From: Alphaproteobacteria bacterium
GTDB lineage: Bacteria; Pseudomonadota; Alphaproteobacteria; M2410
Length of the DNA stretch: 38,415 bases
Assembly (NCBI GenBank): GCA_030614785.1
Contig: JAUWTJ010000035.1
Location: 1-38,415, forward strand
Direction: 5' to 3'
In this document: piece by piece, positions 5,404 to 38,415 of the stretch
How positions within the stretch are numbered: position 1 is the stretch's first letter
How the letters are laid out: every line of letters starts with the position of its first letter
Program-made: the position numbers and the translations under genes
Notes under the pieces: model-generated
The model's database searches: none
What the model was told of the DNA's origin: nothing
The model's input: only the letters and a program-made list of their open reading frames with translations

Positions 5404-5586
5404 TCCTGCGAGGCCCAGGGCCTTCTGTTGTTGTCTTGTCCTGCTAACCCGCGCAGCATAACCCGGAGAAGTCGTTTCAGATAGGGCTTTGTTGAGGCCG
5501 GCTGAGCTTTGGCAGGAATAGGTCTTTCAATGGCTTATGCCGGTGTCTACACTCCCTGGAAAAGACCGATAAGAGGATGCGATGCC

Positions 5587-6618
5587 ATGAAAGTTTCAAT
5601 ATCTGTAGGCGGTTATGCGGGCGTTGACCCGGCAGGGATCACCGAATTTGTTCAGGCGGCCGAGAAGCTGGGCGTCGATACGGTTTGGACCGCCGAGGCC
5701 TGGGGGCAGGACGCGATCACGCCGCTTGCCTTCCTTGCGGGCCAGACGTCGAAGATCAAGCTTGGCACCGGCATCATGCAAATCTCCGCGCGTGCGCCAT
5801 CGATGACGGCGATGACCGCGATGTCGCTTAACAAACTCTCCGGCGGGCGCTTTGTCCTCGGGCTCGGAGCAAGCGGGCCGCAGGTCGTCGAAGGGCTTCA
5901 CGGCGTGGCGTATGAAGGCCCGCTGACGCGGCTACGCGAGACCGTCGAGATTGTCCGGATGGCGTTTCGCGGCGAGAAACTCAAGTATGATGGCAAGTAT
6001 CATGTGCTGCCGCGCCCGGGCGGTGAAGGCAAGGCGATCCGGATTGATCAACCGCCTGTCAATATCCCGATCTTTCTGGCGACGCTTGGACCGAAGTCGC
6101 TGGAATATACCGGGGCGGCGGCGGACGGTTGGCTCGGCACCTCGTTTTCTCCGGACCATGCGGGCGCACATCTTGATCACATCAGACAAGGCGCTGAAGC
6201 GGCGGGGCGCCCGATGTCTGCCATTGATCTCCATGTGGCCTGCGGCGTGGCCATTGGCGATAATGTGCGTGAGCTGATTGATGCGCGCAAGCCGCAGGTC
6301 GCCTTTTCCATGGGCGCCATGGGCTCCGCCAAAACGAACTTTTACAATGAGGCCTTCCAGAGAGCCGGCTATCAGGATGATGCGCTGGCCATTCAGAAAC
6401 TATGGATTGACGGCAAGAGACAAGAGGCCGCCGAGCGTGTGCCCGATGAAATGGTGACGCAGTTTGGCGCGGTCGGTACCGAGGATATGGTGCGCGAGCG
6501 GTTTGCAAAATACAAAGAAGTCGGCATCTCGACGCTCAGCCTTGGTATGGGCGGCGGCTCGCACCGGGACCGTATGGCCGAACTTGAGCGGATCGTTGAT
6601 CTGGCACAATCGGTGTAG
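5587..6618 (+). CDS. LLM-class (luciferase-like) flavin-dependent oxidoreductase
   Basis: This 343-residue protein is a bacterial-luciferase-like TIM barrel. It opens with MKVSISVGGYAG, then LGVDTVWTAEAWGQDAITPL (28-47), KLGTGIMQISARAPSMTAM (58-76) and GRFVLGLGASGPQVVEG (87-103). These match the F420/FMN oxidoreductase branch that includes methylene-H4MPT reductase and F420-dependent enzymes. Whether it uses F420 or FMN cannot be told from sequence. The ATG at 5587 is chosen because the protein start aligns with the family; the upstream in-frame TTG at 5509 adds 26 unrelated residues. An AGAGGA lies 9 bases upstream. The P450 gene begins 34 bp downstream on the same strand, so the two are likely co-transcribed and act on related substrates. 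Confidence 0.85.
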   Translation: MKVSISVGGYAGVDPAGITEFVQAAEKLGVDTVWTAEAWGQDAITPLAFLAGQTSKIKLGTGIMQISARAPSMTAMTAMSLNKLSGGRFVLGLGASGPQVVEGLHGVAYEGPLTRLRETVEIVRMAFRGEKLKYDGKYHVLPRPGGEGKAIRIDQPPVNIPIFLATLGPKSLEYTGAAADGWLGTSFSPDHAGAHLDHIRQGAEAAGRPMSAIDLHVACGVAIGDNVRELIDARKPQVAFSMGAMGSAKTNFYNEAFQRAGYQDDALAIQKLWIDGKRQEAAERVPDEMVTQFGAVGTEDMVRERFAKYKEVGISTLSLGMGGGSHRDRMAELERIVDLAQSV

Positions 6619-29400: not shown

Positions 29401-30210
29401 TCATACGAAGTTGCCGTCTTTTACGACGAAGAAGTGGCGATCTTCTGCCGTCTGAGGCACGCCCGGATCATCGCGCGTTTGTCTCACGTGGATGCCGTCG
29501 GGTGCGTATTGCAAAATATAGGCCTTGCGAGTCTCGTCGGTGAGGTTGGGGCCTGTCTTGTGCGGTGTGAGCGAAGAGAAGACGACAATGTCTCCCGCCT
29601 TTGCCGGAATGGCGACTTCTTCGGGATGATCCACAAACAGTTCATAGCCCAGTGCGACGGTCTTGTGGGTCAGGGTGCCGAGGCGGTGCAAGCCTGGTAC
29701 GACCCACGGGCAGCCGTTCTCCTCGTCCACATCGACCAGCGGAATCCAGCAGGTGAGGTAAATTTGTGGCTCAACGAAATTGTAGCCGTTGTCCTGATGA
29801 TAGGGGAAGGGTCTCGGGTTCCCCGGCTTTTTATAAACGGCCTGATCCCAATAGAGCCGGACGTTGTCGCCGAGCAGGTCCCGGGCGATCCGGGCCAGCA
29901 CGGGATGACGGGCAAAGGCTTTGACTTCAGGGGATTTGGTGACAAAGTGAGGCGCGAAGGTTATCGAATCAACTTTGGAAATGAAGCGCTCTCCGTTTTC
30001 CTGCGTACGAAGAATGTCTTCGAACTCTTGCTCAAGGGGGTCGACCGCAGCCGTAATGGCCGCAATCTCGTCCCTCGTCAGAGCATCCCTGACGAGGAAA
30101 AACCCGTCGCGGTCGTAGGCCGCGCCTTGTTCGGCGGTCAGAAAATTGAAGGGGCCCTTGTGATTAATCCAGTCAAAGTCGTCGTTGAGCTCATGAAGCG
30201 GGTAGGTCAT
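29401..30210 (-). CDS. phytanoyl-CoA dioxygenase (PhyH)-like Fe(II)/2OG enzyme
   Basis: This 269-residue protein carries the PhyH double-stranded beta-helix. The iron site is HQD (H138, D140 in PYHQDNGYNF) and the distal H217 in SLTPHKTGPN, and R228 in ETRKAYILQY binds 2-oxoglutarate. PhyH-family enzymes hydroxylate branched-chain acyl-CoA or related substrates using 2-oxoglutarate and O2. The ATG at 30210 has GGAG 9 bases upstream; the TTG at 30225 adds five residues only. It is divergent from the SDR gene at 30335, fitting alpha-hydroxylation followed by dehydrogenation of a branched substrate. Confidence 0.88.
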   Translation of the reverse strand: MTYPLHELNDDFDWINHKGPFNFLTAEQGAAYDRDGFFLVRDALTRDEIAAITAAVDPLEQEFEDILRTQENGERFISKVDSITFAPHFVTKSPEVKAFARHPVLARIARDLLGDNVRLYWDQAVYKKPGNPRPFPYHQDNGYNFVEPQIYLTCWIPLVDVDEENGCPWVVPGLHRLGTLTHKTVALGYELFVDHPEEVAIPAKAGDIVVFSSLTPHKTGPNLTDETRKAYILQYAPDGIHVRQTRDDPGVPQTAEDRHFFVVKDGNFV

Positions 30211-30334
30211 GCCCAGGGTCTCCAAAATCCAGACTGCGGTATCCCGGCAGACTATTGTCTTTCACAAAAAGGGCTATAGTCGCCCAGGACGAGTGTGGCG
30301 TAGAATCACTTCAATGAAAAGAGGGTGCAGGACT

Positions 30335-31139: not shown

Positions 31140-31949
31140 CTATATGTTTGCCGCCTTTTCGTCGAGCCAGGCCTGGCGCTCTTCAAACGGAATGGCGACA
31201 TATTCTTTCATCGCGGCCAAAGCCTCTTCGGAGCTCATGCAGTCAATGAAGCCTTGCCCTTCCAGAAGGAGGGCTTCATCGAAGGAGCTTTCGGCGCCTT
31301 CATAGATGGCTTTTTTGATGACCGCCATGGCGGTAGGAGACTTGGCGGCGAGGCTTTGCGCTATTTCAAGTGCACGGGCGCGCGCGTCATCGACGACTTC
31401 GTGCACCCTGCCGAGGCGCAGGGCCTCATCAGGTTTAAAGACAAGGCCGCGCAGGATAATATTGATGGCATTTGAGGCGCCGATGAGGCGTGTGAGGCGC
31501 GTAAGGCCGGTGCCGCCGGGCAGGATGCCCAGATTGGCTTCCGGCAATCCGATACGATAGTCACCGCGTTCGGCAATGCGGATGTCACAGCCCAGTGATT
31601 GCTCATAGCCGCCGCCCATGGCGGAGCCGGTAAGGGCCGCGACGACAGGCTTGGACAGTTTTTCGAGGGCGCTCCAGCGTTGGTGGCCCTGCGTCATGAT
31701 GCTGGCATCGGCGCCCTTCATGGCTCCTGCCTCGCTCATGGCGAGTAGTTCTTCTACCGAGAAATGGGTCATGAACAGGCCTTTGGGCTTGCCTTGCAAA
31801 ACAATGGCGCGGACCGACGGGTCCTCACAAGCTGGCATGAGCTCTTCCTGGAACTCCTGAAAGGCTGCTCCAACGAGATAGTTCATAGGCGGATTGTTGT
31901 AGCTGACAACAAGCACCGCGCCCTTTTGTTCCATTTCCCAATAGGCCAT
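31140..31949 (-). CDS. enoyl-CoA hydratase/isomerase family protein
   Basis: This 269-residue crotonase-fold protein has oxyanion-hole segment ALTGSAMGGGYE (105-116), with E116 at the catalytic E144 position. LPEANLGILPGGTGLTRL (135-152) holds E137 at the E164 position, so both catalytic glutamates are present. It is expected to hydrate a 2-enoyl-CoA. AGAGGGG lies 8 bases upstream of the ATG. It is the last gene of the minus-strand acyl-CoA operon. Confidence 0.92.
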   Translation of the reverse strand: MAYWEMEQKGAVLVVSYNNPPMNYLVGAAFQEFQEELMPACEDPSVRAIVLQGKPKGLFMTHFSVEELLAMSEAGAMKGADASIMTQGHQRWSALEKLSKPVVAALTGSAMGGGYEQSLGCDIRIAERGDYRIGLPEANLGILPGGTGLTRLTRLIGASNAINIILRGLVFKPDEALRLGRVHEVVDDARARALEIAQSLAAKSPTAMAVIKKAIYEGAESSFDEALLLEGQGFIDCMSSEEALAAMKEYVAIPFEERQAWLDEKAANI

Positions 31950-32004: not shown

Positions 32005-33603
32005 TTACTCAGTATAGATGCCGTCACCATCGGTCGTAAACCGGTCGAGCAGGAAGCGTTCCTGGGGTTTTTCCGATGCGGTCTTGGGGATCTCGTCAAC
32101 GACTTGCAGGTAGGTCGGGACGAAGTTGCCTTCCATTTCCTTGCGACATTTGGCAAAGACGGCCGCCGGACTAAAGCTTGCTCTGTCGACTGCAACGATG
32201 GCGGCGACGACGTCCTTTTCGCCAGGTGCGCCCGACGCTGCGGGGACACCGTAGATGAAGACATCATCGACCTCGTCGGATTCAGCGACAACGCCCTCAA
32301 CGAAACCGGGATTAATGAAATCGCCGTTGTGCCTGATGCCGCCGCCCTTGCGATAGTCGAAATAGAACCAGCCGTCCTCGTCGGTGTGGCAGACATCGCC
32401 GGAGCGCAACCAGCCGCCACGGGTCTTTTCTTCCGAGGCGTCTTTCTTGCCGAAATATTCCACCGTCGGAGCCTCGCCGGAGGCGGGCCGCGAAACCAGT
32501 TCACCCATGACGCCGGGAGCACATTCATTGTCGTTTTCATCGACGACGCGCATTTCGCTATTGGCGGGCGGCTTGCCAAACGAGCCAATCGGACCTTCGC
32601 CAATTGGACGCACGGCCATGCCGCCTTCGATGGCGCCGTAACATTCCAGAATATCGACGTTGAAGCGTTTTTCGAATTTTTCCCAAATGGCGATGGGCAT
32701 GCCAGCCGAGATCACACGTTCGACGGGGTTGTCGCCATCATTCGGTTTTTCGGGCTCCGAATAGATCGCTGTGGCCATGCCGCCAAGGAGATTGAAATAG
32801 GTGCAGCCATATTTGCGGGTGATGTCCCACAGGCGCGACTTGGTGAACTTGCGTGAGAAGACCCCTCTGAGGCCTTGGCCGAGGATGGGCCCCAGAGTCA
32901 TGAATTGCGCGTTGCCATGGGTGAGCGAAAGACCGGTATAGGGGCGATCCCCCTCTTTGGAACCGATGAGCGCGCCGAACATGGTTGCGCCGCCATATTG
33001 TTCGTTGGAGCGCACGACGCCCTTGGGGTCGCCGGTCGTGCCCGAGGTGTAGATAATTTCAAAGGGGTCAGTGCCGCCGGTGAGCCGGTCATTGTCGGTT
33101 GTGACGGGCGTGTCATAGATCGCGGCAATGTCCTCGCCGTGCTTTATATCGGCAACTGTCATGCCGGTGCCTTCGTCGGTGCCCAGAACCCAGACCCACT
33201 CAAGGCTCGCCACGTCGGCCTGAATATCGCCAAGGTTTTCAAGGGCATAGTCGGCGGCGATGACGCCCTTGCAGTTGGAGTTGTTGAGTGTGTAGGACAG
33301 CTTTTGACCCTTGGTGCGCGGGTCGATGGGGACAAAGACGCAGGCCGAGAGAGAGGCGCCGACCATGATGTCGATAAACTCGGGATGATTACGAATGAGA
33401 ATGGCAAAGCGATCCCCGGGCTGCATGCCGCGCGCGATGAGACCGGCGGCGATCCGGTTGCCGTTTTCCCAGAGATCCTTGTAGGTCCGGATTTCATCGT
33501 CGCGCACACCGGCGCCTTCGAAAGTGAGAATATCACGGTCCGGTAATTCTTCGGCTTTAGTGGCGATCAGATCGGCCAGGATAAATGGACTGCGGTCTCT
33601 CAT
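32005..33603 (-). CDS. AMP-forming acyl-CoA ligase
   Basis: This 532-residue member of the ANL superfamily has the P-loop motif YTSGTTGDPKG (185-195). The A5-like ECYGAIEGG lies near the middle, and WLRSGDVCHTDEDGWFYF is the A7/A8 hinge. The C-terminal A10 motif is PKTASEKPQERF, with the catalytic lysine. The protein would activate a carboxylic acid as the acyl-adenylate and then the CoA thioester. The substrate is unknown; the operon suggests a cyclic or branched acid. AAGGAG precedes the ATG. The CoA-ligase gene and the thiolase gene are separated by 184 bp holding a pair of palindromic repeats. Confidence 0.92.
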   Translation of the reverse strand: MRDRSPFILADLIATKAEELPDRDILTFEGAGVRDDEIRTYKDLWENGNRIAAGLIARGMQPGDRFAILIRNHPEFIDIMVGASLSACVFVPIDPRTKGQKLSYTLNNSNCKGVIAADYALENLGDIQADVASLEWVWVLGTDEGTGMTVADIKHGEDIAAIYDTPVTTDNDRLTGGTDPFEIIYTSGTTGDPKGVVRSNEQYGGATMFGALIGSKEGDRPYTGLSLTHGNAQFMTLGPILGQGLRGVFSRKFTKSRLWDITRKYGCTYFNLLGGMATAIYSEPEKPNDGDNPVERVISAGMPIAIWEKFEKRFNVDILECYGAIEGGMAVRPIGEGPIGSFGKPPANSEMRVVDENDNECAPGVMGELVSRPASGEAPTVEYFGKKDASEEKTRGGWLRSGDVCHTDEDGWFYFDYRKGGGIRHNGDFINPGFVEGVVAESDEVDDVFIYGVPAASGAPGEKDVVAAIVAVDRASFSPAAVFAKCRKEMEGNFVPTYLQVVDEIPKTASEKPQERFLLDRFTTDGDGIYTE

Positions 33604-33787: not shown

Positions 33788-35011
33788 TTACCGGCTCAAA
33801 ATCGTGATGCACTGAGCGGCTGCGTCGGTGCCCAAAGAACCGCCGCCGTTGTGGGCCAGACCAAATCTGGCGCCCTCGACCTGACGTTCGCCGGAGCGAC
33901 CCTGAAGCTGTTCGGTAATCTCGACGATTTGGGCAATACCCGTTGCGCCGACCGGGTGGCCCTTGCGCAACAGACCGCCCGAGGTATTGACCGGTATGCG
34001 GCCACCGAGTTTGGTATCGCCATCCGAGATCAGCTTGCCGCCTTCGCCCTTGCCGCAGATGCCAATGGACTCGTAGGCCATGATTTCGGCAGGAGCCGAG
34101 GCGTCATGCAGCTCGATGATGGAAAGGTCGTTCGGACCGACGCCGGCTTCCTCGTAGGCTTCCTTGCAGCACAGATCCGAAACGCTGCCTTCGCCGTCCC
34201 AGCCGGAGCGCAGGACACTTGAGACCGCTTTGACCGGATTGGTGAGGCCAAGCTCGCGGGCTTTCTTTTCGCTGACGATGACAACAGCAGCGGCGCCGTC
34301 GCCAATCGGCGAGCACATCGGCCGTGTCAGGGGTTCGGCAATCATCGGCGAGGCCAGTACGTCATCGATCGTCAGGGCTTCGCGGAATTGTGCCCGTGGG
34401 TTGAGGCTGCCGTGGAAGGAGTTCTTGGCGGAAACGCCGGCGAACTGTTCGACCGTGGTGCCGTAGGCCTTCATGTGATTGCGTGCGGCAGAGGCATAAA
34501 TGTCCATGAACATGGAACGGTTTTTGCCAGCGCCTCCGGAGGCTTTCTTGGCCCCACCTGCCTCGGCGGATTTCTTGAGGTTTTCCATGATCTGGATCAT
34601 GTTTTCAACATCCACAGCACCGGAGAAGGCGGCAAAGGATTTGGCCTTGTCGGTGTGATAGAGTTTTTCAACGCCGACGGCGAGCACGCAGTCATAGAGA
34701 CCGCCCGTGACCATGGCTGCGGCCTGATTAAAAGCGGTTGAGGCCGAGGCGCAGGCGTTTTCGACGTTGACGACCGGGATTTGTCCCATGCCCACGCTTC
34801 TGAGCACGACCTGACCGCGGATACATTCCTGGCCGGTGACGAGGCCAGCAGCTGCATTGCCGACCCAGGCGGCTTCAATGTCTGTTTTTTCGAGACCGGC
34901 ATCCTTGATGGCCGCTTCAACGGCTTCGCCGCCAATCGCCTTCAACCCGAGATCAAGATGTTTGCCGAATTGTGTCATGCCGACACCGGCGATATAGGCG
35001 TTCAGTTTCAT
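33788..35011 (-). CDS. SCP-x-type thiolase / acetyl-CoA acetyltransferase family
   Basis: This 407-residue thiolase-fold protein has nucleophile C87 in ENACASAST (84-92). H352 lies in GHPVGATG (351-358), and HNGGG (387-391) replaces the second-Cys motif of classical thiolases, which is typical of SCP-x and lipid-transfer thiolases. ELHDAS also matches the SCP-x group. These enzymes cleave or form 3-oxoacyl-CoA with bulky or branched chains, including steroid side chains. GGAGG lies 6 bases upstream of the ATG. Confidence 0.9.
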   Translation of the reverse strand: MKLNAYIAGVGMTQFGKHLDLGLKAIGGEAVEAAIKDAGLEKTDIEAAWVGNAAAGLVTGQECIRGQVVLRSVGMGQIPVVNVENACASASTAFNQAAAMVTGGLYDCVLAVGVEKLYHTDKAKSFAAFSGAVDVENMIQIMENLKKSAEAGGAKKASGGAGKNRSMFMDIYASAARNHMKAYGTTVEQFAGVSAKNSFHGSLNPRAQFREALTIDDVLASPMIAEPLTRPMCSPIGDGAAAVVIVSEKKARELGLTNPVKAVSSVLRSGWDGEGSVSDLCCKEAYEEAGVGPNDLSIIELHDASAPAEIMAYESIGICGKGEGGKLISDGDTKLGGRIPVNTSGGLLRKGHPVGATGIAQIVEITEQLQGRSGERQVEGARFGLAHNGGGSLGTDAAAQCITILSR

Positions 35012-35942: not shown

Positions 35943-37142
35943 TTATTCTTCGACAAGCTTGTCTGCACAAACAAGTCCGAGGACATCGTTGCAGCCATCC
36001 TCGATCATCGAAATACGGGCGTCCCGGAGCATCTTTTCTATCGGGTATTCTCTGGAAATTCCATTGCCACCAAAAATCTGCAAGGCGTCTGAAGCGACTT
36101 CAAAAGCTGTTTGGGTGGCGGTAACCTTGGCTGCGATTGCCGGCCCGAGATTGCCATTGCCTGCTGCATTGCTCATCGCCACCTTGCGGGCAAGGCAGCG
36201 CGCGGCTTCGACCTTGCGGTACATCTGGAAAATCCGGGCCTTGACGCTTTGATGCTGGATGATCGGAACGCCGCCCTGGACGCGGGTTTTGGCATAGTCC
36301 AGCGCCTCTTCAAAGGCGGCACGGGCCAGACCTGTGAAGGTCAGTGCCATGCCGGTGTTTGCACCGGTCAGGGTTTGATCGATTGCGAATTGATAAAGGT
36401 CAGGACCATAAAGAACATTGTCGGCGGGCACGCGGACTTCGTCAAAGAAAATCTCGCCCTGATTGAGGGCGCGTTGGCCAATTTTCTCCAGCGCCTTGCC
36501 GCGACTGACACCCTTGCTCTTCAAATTGACCAGGATAACGCCGCCGCCTTTCTTGCCGTCGGCTGTTTCCATCGCGCAGTAAAGCGCTGCCTGTTCGGCT
36601 ATGGTGCCATTGGAGACCCATGCGGCCTTCTGGCCCGAGATAACATATTCATTACCATCGGCACGGGCGATGCAATCCGCCCTGCTGCGCGTTGCACCCG
36701 GGGCCATGATAGCGTCGCCGAAGTCAATCATATCTGAGCCGTGATTTGGTTCGGTGATGGCCCAGCAACCATTGGTGCCTTGGGGAAAGCGTGCGGCGAG
36801 TTCGGCATTGCCGGAATTAGCTGCCATGCCGCCTGCCATGGCGCCGGCGCCAAAGGATATGGCAAGGCCCGAATCGCCCCAGCCCATTTCTTCAGAGATC
36901 AGGCAACTGATCCGCGCCTGCTCGATCGGGCTGAGGTCCGGGTCAACCTCGCGCAGGCCAAGATCATTGTACTGCTTGTGGGCATCCCAAAGAAGGCTGT
37001 CTTTGGCGATCACGTCCTCGGCGCTCATTTTGTCGAGTTTATCACCTACGGGGCGCATGACCTCGGTTGCAAACCTGTGAGCTGTGTCGCGCACGGCCCG
37101 CTCGGTTTCATTGAGGTCAAATTCCAGGTCAATAACCGGCAT
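35943..37142 (-). CDS. acyl-CoA dehydrogenase, first of tandem pair
   Basis: This 399-residue protein has the full ACAD fold: EEMGWGDSGLAIS, CWAITEPNHGSDMIDF (FAD-binding segment), YVISGQKAAWVSNG, GGVPIIQHQSVKARIF and FGGNGISREYPIEKMLRDA. The stretch after GGNG aligns gap-free with MCAD, so the catalytic Glu of MCAD (YEG) falls on D382 here (I-E381-D382-G), and the Tyr before it becomes Glu. AAGGA precedes the ATG at 37142. It follows the paralogue on the same strand (82-bp gap) and precedes the nitroreductase (37-bp gap). An alpha/beta pair like FadE/ChsE heterotetramers is possible. Confidence 0.93.
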   Translation of the reverse strand: MPVIDLEFDLNETERAVRDTAHRFATEVMRPVGDKLDKMSAEDVIAKDSLLWDAHKQYNDLGLREVDPDLSPIEQARISCLISEEMGWGDSGLAISFGAGAMAGGMAANSGNAELAARFPQGTNGCWAITEPNHGSDMIDFGDAIMAPGATRSRADCIARADGNEYVISGQKAAWVSNGTIAEQAALYCAMETADGKKGGGVILVNLKSKGVSRGKALEKIGQRALNQGEIFFDEVRVPADNVLYGPDLYQFAIDQTLTGANTGMALTFTGLARAAFEEALDYAKTRVQGGVPIIQHQSVKARIFQMYRKVEAARCLARKVAMSNAAGNGNLGPAIAAKVTATQTAFEVASDALQIFGGNGISREYPIEKMLRDARISMIEDGCNDVLGLVCADKLVEE

Positions 37143-37224
37143 AGTCGTTCCTTCCCTTGGATGCGATCTCGTGAAGACCGCGGTTTTCTAAGCTTTATTG
37201 TTTTTGTTCATATCGCTCGAAAAT

Positions 37225-38415
37225 CTAGTCGCATGCTAACCGCCCTGCGCCTATCAAGCCAAGCATTTCGTTACATCCGTCCTCGATCATCGCGATTCGG
37301 GTATCCCGGAAGATCTTTTCGATGGGATATTCACGGCTGATGCCGTTCCCGCCAAAGATTTGCAGGGCCTCCGAGGCAACATCAAAAGCGGCTTGAGTGG
37401 CAACAGTTTTGGCTGCAATGGCGGCCGCTAGCGCTGGCTGTTCAGAGGTTTCGTTGCTCAAGACGGCCCGATAAGCCAGCGTGCGTGCGGCAATGACCTT
37501 CTTGTACATATTGAAGATGCGCGTCTGGACGCTTTGATGCTGAATGATCGGCACCCCGCCCTGAACCCGGGTCTTTGCATAGTCGAGGGCAAGCTCGAAG
37601 GCTGCTCTGGCAGCACCCGAGAATGTTGTGGCCATGATGCCATTGGCCCGGCAGAGTGTGAGGTCGGTGAACGCCGCATAATCGTCGGGACCTGCGACCA
37701 TGTGGTCGGCGGGAATGCGCAGGCCGTCAAAGAAGATCTCACCCTGGTTTAGAGCACGCTGGCCGATTTTTTCCAGCGCCTTACCTTTTGAAATGGCCTC
37801 GCCTTCAATGCGGGCCAGAAAGACGCCGTTGCCGCGCGTGCCGTCGGGCATTTCCACGGCGCAAAAGAGCGCGGCGGCTGTGGCTGAGGTTCCGTTTGAG
37901 ACCCAGGAGGACTTTTGCCCGGAAACAACAAACTCGTTACCGTCGGCGCGGGCGATAATGTTGGGCGCCTGGCGTTTGCCGCGCGGATCGATCAGCGCGT
38001 CGCCAAAATCGACCATGTCCGATCCGTGATCCGGTTCAGTAATCGCCCAGCAGCCGATCTCGCCGGCCGGGAACTTCTCCATGAGATCTTCACGCTCAAC
38101 CATTGCCGCGATTTCGGAGGGGAAGGCGGCAACACCCAGCGAGATGGCGAGGCCGGAATCGCCCCACCCGAGTTCCTCAAGGACAATGAACTGGAGACGA
38201 GCCTTTTCGAGAGCGGGCATTTCCGGATCGAGGGCATCAAAGCCCAGGCCTTGATACTGTTTGTAGACGTCCCATAGAGCCGACTCGGGGGCGATCACAT
38301 CTCCTGCCGGTAATTTGTCGAGGGCTTCTCCGACGGGGCGCAAGACTTCTGCTGCAAACCTGTGTGCGGTCTTCTGCACTGCGCGGTCTGTTTCAGAAAA
38401 GTCATAGTCCAGGTC
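37225..38415 (-). CDS. acyl-CoA dehydrogenase, second of tandem pair (5' end cut by window)
   Basis: The frame stays open to the window edge (38415), giving DLDYDFSETDRAVQKTAHRF where its paralogue has DLEFDLNETERAVRDTAHRF, so only a few N-terminal residues are missing. Motifs match the neighbour: CWAITEPDHGSDMVDF, FVVSGQKSSWVSNG, GGVPIIQHQSVQTRIF and FGGNGISREYPIEKIFRDT. The same E-D-G occurs at the catalytic position (Asp codon 37279-37281). The two genes clearly arose by duplication; differences cluster in the C-terminal and middle regions. It is the first gene of the operon visible in the window; a promoter would lie outside. Confidence 0.92.
   Translation of the reverse strand, partial: DLDYDFSETDRAVQKTAHRFAAEVLRPVGEALDKLPAGDVIAPESALWDVYKQYQGLGFDALDPEMPALEKARLQFIVLEELGWGDSGLAISLGVAAFPSEIAAMVEREDLMEKFPAGEIGCWAITEPDHGSDMVDFGDALIDPRGKRQAPNIIARADGNEFVVSGQKSSWVSNGTSATAAALFCAVEMPDGTRGNGVFLARIEGEAISKGKALEKIGQRALNQGEIFFDGLRIPADHMVAGPDDYAAFTDLTLCRANGIMATTFSGAARAAFELALDYAKTRVQGGVPIIQHQSVQTRIFNMYKKVIAARTLAYRAVLSNETSEQPALAAAIAAKTVATQAAFDVASEALQIFGGNGISREYPIEKIFRDTRIAMIEDGCNEMLGLIGAGRLACD

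Follow-up and report, generated by a model that had tools for sequence, protein, structure and literature searches.

We describe here two neighbouring acyl-CoA dehydrogenase (ACAD) genes from an alphaproteobacterial genome, which, judged from their sequences, belong to an undescribed ACAD family, and which form with a nitroreductase-fold flavoprotein (NTR), a thiolase and a ligase a conserved and likewise undescribed cassette common to several phyla. The family cassette co-occurs with synthesis of the unusual cofactor F420, and the best explanation of the data as a whole, to which we would give about an even chance, is that the cassette constitutes an F420-linked module for acyl-CoA catabolism.

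The window, that is the whole stretch of DNA analysed, is a complete contig (C65) of 38,415 bases; the draft genome to which it belongs is near-complete and consists of 148 contigs. Its relevant features, together with those of related loci, are collected in Table 1.

Table 1. Location of the genes discussed; positions refer to the window where no other locus is named.
Feature	Location	Strand	Remarks
P0001, ACAD paralogue	35943..37142	(-)	ORF, 399 aa
P0002, ACAD paralogue	37225..38415	(-)	ORF, 396 aa, 5' end cut by contig end
NTR, nitroreductase-fold flavoprotein, 264 aa	35111..35905	(-)	next cassette gene, 37 bp gap from P0001
SCP2/lipid-transfer-type thiolase	33788..35011	(-)	profile matches
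AMP-forming acyl-CoA ligase, CaiC/FadD-like	32005..33603	(-)	profile match
Enoyl-CoA hydratase/isomerase	31140..31949	(-)	profile match; 55 bp gap
LLM-class oxidoreductase, F420_Rv3520c type	5509..6618	(+)	317 bits, below cut-off 335; outside operon
ACAD-A, first of array	L021 (host G000, contig C109), 1566-2762	(-)	one in-frame TAA shortly before IEDG
DUF5938 (PF19362), saccharopine-dehydrogenase-like NAD(P)-binding fold	L118 13109-14215, L119 10284-11414, L120 10282-11415		

The N-terminal, middle and C-terminal ACAD domains are present in the predicted proteins (Pfam PF02771, PF02770 and PF00441, over the cut-off), and SCAD and MCAD are the best matches in a fold search, with TM about 0.8. 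The initial annotation had read I-E-D-G in both ORFs at the column of the MCAD base Glu376, and the alignment with human MCAD and the reading of the codons agree with it: this column is occupied by Asp382 in P0001 (GAT, 35997-35999) and by Asp379 in P0002 (GAC, 37279-37281), each directly preceded by a Glu encoded by GAG (Glu381 in P0001). A Glu at the alternative base site of IVD and LCAD (MCAD Thr255 column) was sought by alignment; this column holds Ala and no carboxylate in both ORFs, which rules out a base on that helix and leaves Asp in the base position. The AlphaFold2 model of P0001 (pLDDT 89.4) places Asp382 in a loop between helices 368-378 and 385-398, which matches the JK loop seen in known ACADs. 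It may be that Glu381 and not Asp382 serves as the base, against which speaks the description of the residue preceding the base as one shaping the acyl pocket (PMC11659651).

The family differs from its relatives in one more position. Asn262 of P0001 sits in the column of MCAD Arg256, an Arg described as conserved across ACADs (R631 in ACAD11, PMC12440821) and typical of them rather than strictly defining. Asn is found there in 86/86 aligned family members, and Gly in two distant plasmid members. Asp in the base column and Glu before it are equally invariant (86/86 each, from six phyla), and since about 51 of these 86 members lack the search peptide MIEDGCND and were recovered by other patterns, the count for Asp is not circular. 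The invariance of the E-D pair is more than a chance effect, and we would regard I-E-D-G combined with Asn at the Arg256 column as the hallmark of the family. In fold, domain order and the JK-loop position of the base it is like MCAD and SCAD (PDB 3mdd, 1jqi), but it has Asp for the base Glu, Glu for the preceding Tyr, Asn for Arg256 and an insertion in the middle domain, at about 25-28% identity.

Asp in the base column is by itself no rarity, as it was found in 4 of the 16 other host ACADs read, these four being unrelated to the family, and in 12/12 aligned relatives of TIGR03207 (cyclohexanecarboxyl-CoA dehydrogenase, AliB/BadJ type) from the host's class. The TIGR03207 relatives share the Asp with the family but read I-G-D-G and keep the Arg. 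Nitroalkane oxidase is also an ACAD-superfamily enzyme, with Asp402 as base; it oxidises nitroalkanes, has no CoA substrate and is likened here by description. Its homology to ACADs is named in the reference list of PMC3509576. The catalytic Asp column is further shared with ACAD10, ACAD11 and LvaC, whose substrate is 4-phosphoacyl-CoA (PMC11342911, PMC12440821). Asp alone is therefore no pointer to rings: the connection with alicyclic substrates drawn in the initial annotation has some footing in that all the aligned TIGR03207 relatives have Asp, but Asp is not ring-specific. Membership of P0001 and P0002 in TIGR03207 (88 and 79 bits, cut-off 575) or NF043006 (141 and 120 bits, cut-off 650) is ruled out by these scores, and membership in AcrC or ACAD10/11 by score or motif. 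The common Asp would also permit chemistry like that of ACAD10, ACAD11 and LvaC, in which proton abstraction is followed by phosphate loss from a 4-phosphoacyl-CoA with no net oxidation; those enzymes, however, possess an HCMR motif and a kinase domain or partner, while the family has neither the motif nor the conserved Arg, its Asn column is invariant, no APH-type kinase was recognised in the cassette, and the ACAD10/11-like proteins of the host (IADGPDEVH) are encoded by separate genes, so that we consider this reading very improbable.

A search of the host genome showed that another contig, C109, carries two further close paralogues together with an N-terminal fragment. The pair that the initial annotation had called tandem is indeed adjacent, but the array comprises four genes, two of them on C109. 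The right end of the window can be aligned with the left end of C109 in an overlap of 307 nt, of which 289 are identical (94%); at the protein level 99 of 102 residues agree, and the start of P0002 is recovered on C109. This is far above the protein identity of roughly 62% that the host ACAD paralogues share with one another, and the simplest reading is that strain variation has divided one gene where the contig breaks. Once the two contigs are joined, the minus strand reads npdG, cofE, cofD, cofC, fbiC, ACAD-A, ACAD-B, P0002, P0001, NTR, thiolase, ligase and enoyl-CoA hydratase; the gaps between neighbours other than the pair ACAD-B and P0002 range from -4 to 184 bp. This order would depend on the join of C65 and C109 at 94% overlap.

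All four host ACADs keep the motifs TEPxHGSD, WVSNG, GQR, R(V/I)QGG and IEDG; the in-frame stop codon of ACAD-A may reflect a pseudogene, a strain variant or an assembly error. The tree unites the four copies of the host in one group with the single copy of a genome of the same family (L024; support 98/89), which indicates a lineage-specific expansion, and most of the 78 related loci have a single ACAD per cassette. A heteromer built from duplicated subunits, as had been proposed from the sequence of the pair, finds little support in these data, and the pattern expected of an alpha2beta2 enzyme, in which every member would encode two different obligatory subunits side by side, is not what is seen; a heteromer in this host is possible at best and not indicated, and the four copies are probably homotetramers for different substrates. 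The broader model of that annotation, a heteromeric ACAD for alicyclic acyl-CoA with Asp as its base, can draw on the Asp of the TIGR03207 relatives, the adjacency of the paralogues and the replacement of the pocket Tyr by Glu; we nevertheless judge it unlikely, in view of the one ACAD per cassette in most relatives, the intact catalytic motifs of all host copies, the scores far under the TIGR03207 and NF043006 cut-offs and the presence of Asp in non-alicyclic ACADs.

The 78 loci with the family, distributed over at least six phyla, come from 84,980 species genomes that were scanned. Of these loci 56 have NTR, 57 the thiolase and 42 the ligase, where many loci end early with their contig, and 46 of 80 NTR genes (from 50 genomes) lie on the same strand within 300 bp of a family ACAD. 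The enoyl-CoA hydratase/isomerase is probably part of the same operon in the host; at the threshold used it was found beside the cassette in none of the 78 related loci, and would thus lie outside the conserved core.

About 30 loci contain the alpha subunit of a type II DMSO reductase, an ethylbenzene-dehydrogenase-like molybdoenzyme, located 3-10 kb from the ACAD in L054, L055, L047, L052, L043, L081 and others, and divergent from it in Chloroflexota loci. Because so many loci carry this molybdoenzyme, the cassette may plausibly act on a branched or cyclic acid that stems from recalcitrant hydrocarbons. As to other neighbours, a CoA-transferase of the PF01144 family, encoded by two genes, is present in nine loci, mostly of Chloroflexota; some related cassettes (L047, L043, L052) have TPP enzymes resembling 2-hydroxyacyl-CoA lyase in their vicinity, and in the window a PhyH-family dioxygenase (29401-30225) is found close downstream of the operon. 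Five genomes of Binatota-like, delta-type and gamma affiliation (G007, G009, G014, G015, G017) show an expansion of the ACAD paralogues: each genome has 5-7 ACADs of the family, and these are often accompanied by an NTR apiece.

In the joined row the cassette of the host stands downstream of npdG-cofE-cofD-cofC-fbiC. These genes are identified by curated models over their cut-offs, namely CofG/H by PRK09234 (1105 bits, cut-off 1018), CofC by TIGR03552 (146/105), CofD by TIGR01819 (300/257) and CofE by TIGR01916 (247/181), and NpdG likewise. Adjacency of the cassette and F420 genes is seen only in this host, with CofD also near the cassette in L082, and in nearly all other cassette genomes the F420 genes are located elsewhere. 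CofH is over the cut-off in 41 of 49 family-bearing genomes. Base rates, measured for the alpha and gamma classes, are 46/288 (16%) in the Alphaproteobacteria, the class of the host, and 8/185 with the centre genome included (about 4%) in the gamma class, where 7/7 tested family-bearing genomes labelled Gammaproteobacteria exceed the CofH cut-off. A literature search found nothing that links F420 with an ACAD-nitroreductase cluster.

NTR itself seems to go together with F420 synthesis. Among 50 genomes, with fragmentary CofH matches scored as positive (an Azonexus draft, G048, has a partial one), CofH is present in 41 and missing in 2 of the NTR-positive genomes, and present in 3 and missing in 4 of the NTR-negative ones (Fisher p = 0.002; this and the preceding counts are uncorrected for phylogeny). 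The two NTR-bearing genomes without CofH (G034, G045) are small and possibly incomplete drafts.

Such co-occurrence can reflect the shared ancestry of uncultured lineages, and it would be quite possible, if somewhat short of even, that the cassette is as we describe it while its F420 link is merely inherited, NTR being an ordinary NAD(P)H-fed FMN enzyme and F420 serving others, for instance the LLM-class oxidoreductase. F420 makers of this kind probably own many F420 enzymes, as the LLM in the window illustrates, and the separation of F420 genes from the cassette in nearly all other genomes fits the same view. Against it stand the co-occurrence in two classes with base rates as low as those of the Alphaproteobacteria and Gammaproteobacteria, and the fact that NTR, too, is lacking from all four genomes of Pseudomonadota that have no CofH (G005, G010, G011, G012). 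The LLM of the window is a possible F420-dependent partner; it lies together with a FabK/NMO-like protein and a cytochrome P450 (4385-7972), over 20 kb away from the cassette, whereas in L028 an LLM 72% identical to that of the window has the cassette at a distance of about 3 kb.

NTR belongs to Pfam PF00881, and its AF2 model (pLDDT 89.8) has the nitroreductase fold, a fold class whose members as a rule work with FMN and NAD(P)H. Among its nearest folds is CLA-ER, a nitroreductase-family enone reductase (17% identity by fold), and a weak profile similarity to FbiB is seen (E = 0.0019). CLA-ER and the C-terminal domain of FbiE/FbiB both reduce C=C bonds, and NTR shares their fold class with only weak similarity to either. 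From the co-occurrence, the gene row with npdG, the exchange of partners described below and the fold shared with CLA-ER and FbiB we infer that NTR would use F420H2 in a reductive role.

NTR could alternatively be the dehydro-F420-0 reductase, the role of FbiE, which would tie the cassette to the synthesis of F420 and not to its use. FbiE is a protein of the nitroreductase superfamily (PMC8498797), and searches of the host and of 26 genomes with the cassette found no FbiE/FbiB C-terminal homologue above the cut-off. But NTR adjoins the ACADs and not the F420 genes, and neither the search of the host genome nor that of NCBIfam matched it with the FbiE model TIGR03553. In the sample of the host's class NTR is missing in 43 of 46 CofH-positive genomes, while 3/3 NTR-bearing ones are CofH-positive, and it follows that NTR is not required for F420 synthesis. 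We regard this assignment as quite improbable.

The place of NTR is taken by other proteins in part of the cassettes. Genomes devoid of both F420 and NTR have another nitroreductase and a ferredoxin instead: in L025 NTR2, a different PF00881 protein, stands after the ligase together with a ferredoxin, and L032 and L033 have homologues of it in the same setting, while L031 ends with its contig. Less in line with the F420 link, L029, whose genome has CofH, and L030 have NTR2 and ferredoxin as well. DUF5938 stands in the place of NTR in L118-L124 and L093. A more remote version of the cassette, made up of ACAD (with I-E-D-G), thiolase, ligase and DUF5938, is carried by cultured relatives, namely Pseudomonas sp. 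MPC6, Azoarcus sp. KH32C and, on a plasmid, P. aeruginosa; our literature search found no mention of DUF5938.

We propose the following sequence of events, in which the roles of ligase, ACAD and thiolase follow from the families to which they belong. The ligase would convert the acid to its CoA thioester, from which the ACAD would take the alpha proton by Asp382, the base assigned from the sequence, and transfer a hydride to FAD, with Glu381 and Asn262 shaping a polar pocket; the ACADs could also run in the reductive direction. NTR, as an FMN enzyme, may perform a reductive step, putatively an ene-reduction, for which F420H2 would supply the electrons; NpdG would regenerate F420H2 from NADPH, and the thiolase would cleave the product. 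In F420-free genomes the slot of NTR would be filled by the other nitroreductase with ferredoxin or by DUF5938.

We may even suggest, tentatively and with more doubt than confidence, that an Asp-base ACAD working with an F420H2-dependent ene-reductase, the latter being swapped where F420 is lacking, is one reason for the synthesis of F420 in uncultured Proteobacteria, Myxococcota and Chloroflexota. A conserved cassette that co-occurs with F420, and in one host appears joined to the F420 genes, offers a concrete enzyme set for this idea. It would define an ACAD family with an altered active site, with Asp as the base, a Glu in the pocket and Asn in the place of Arg, and, if the proposed function is true, it would give an enzyme of the nitroreductase fold a part in the catabolism of acyl-CoA.
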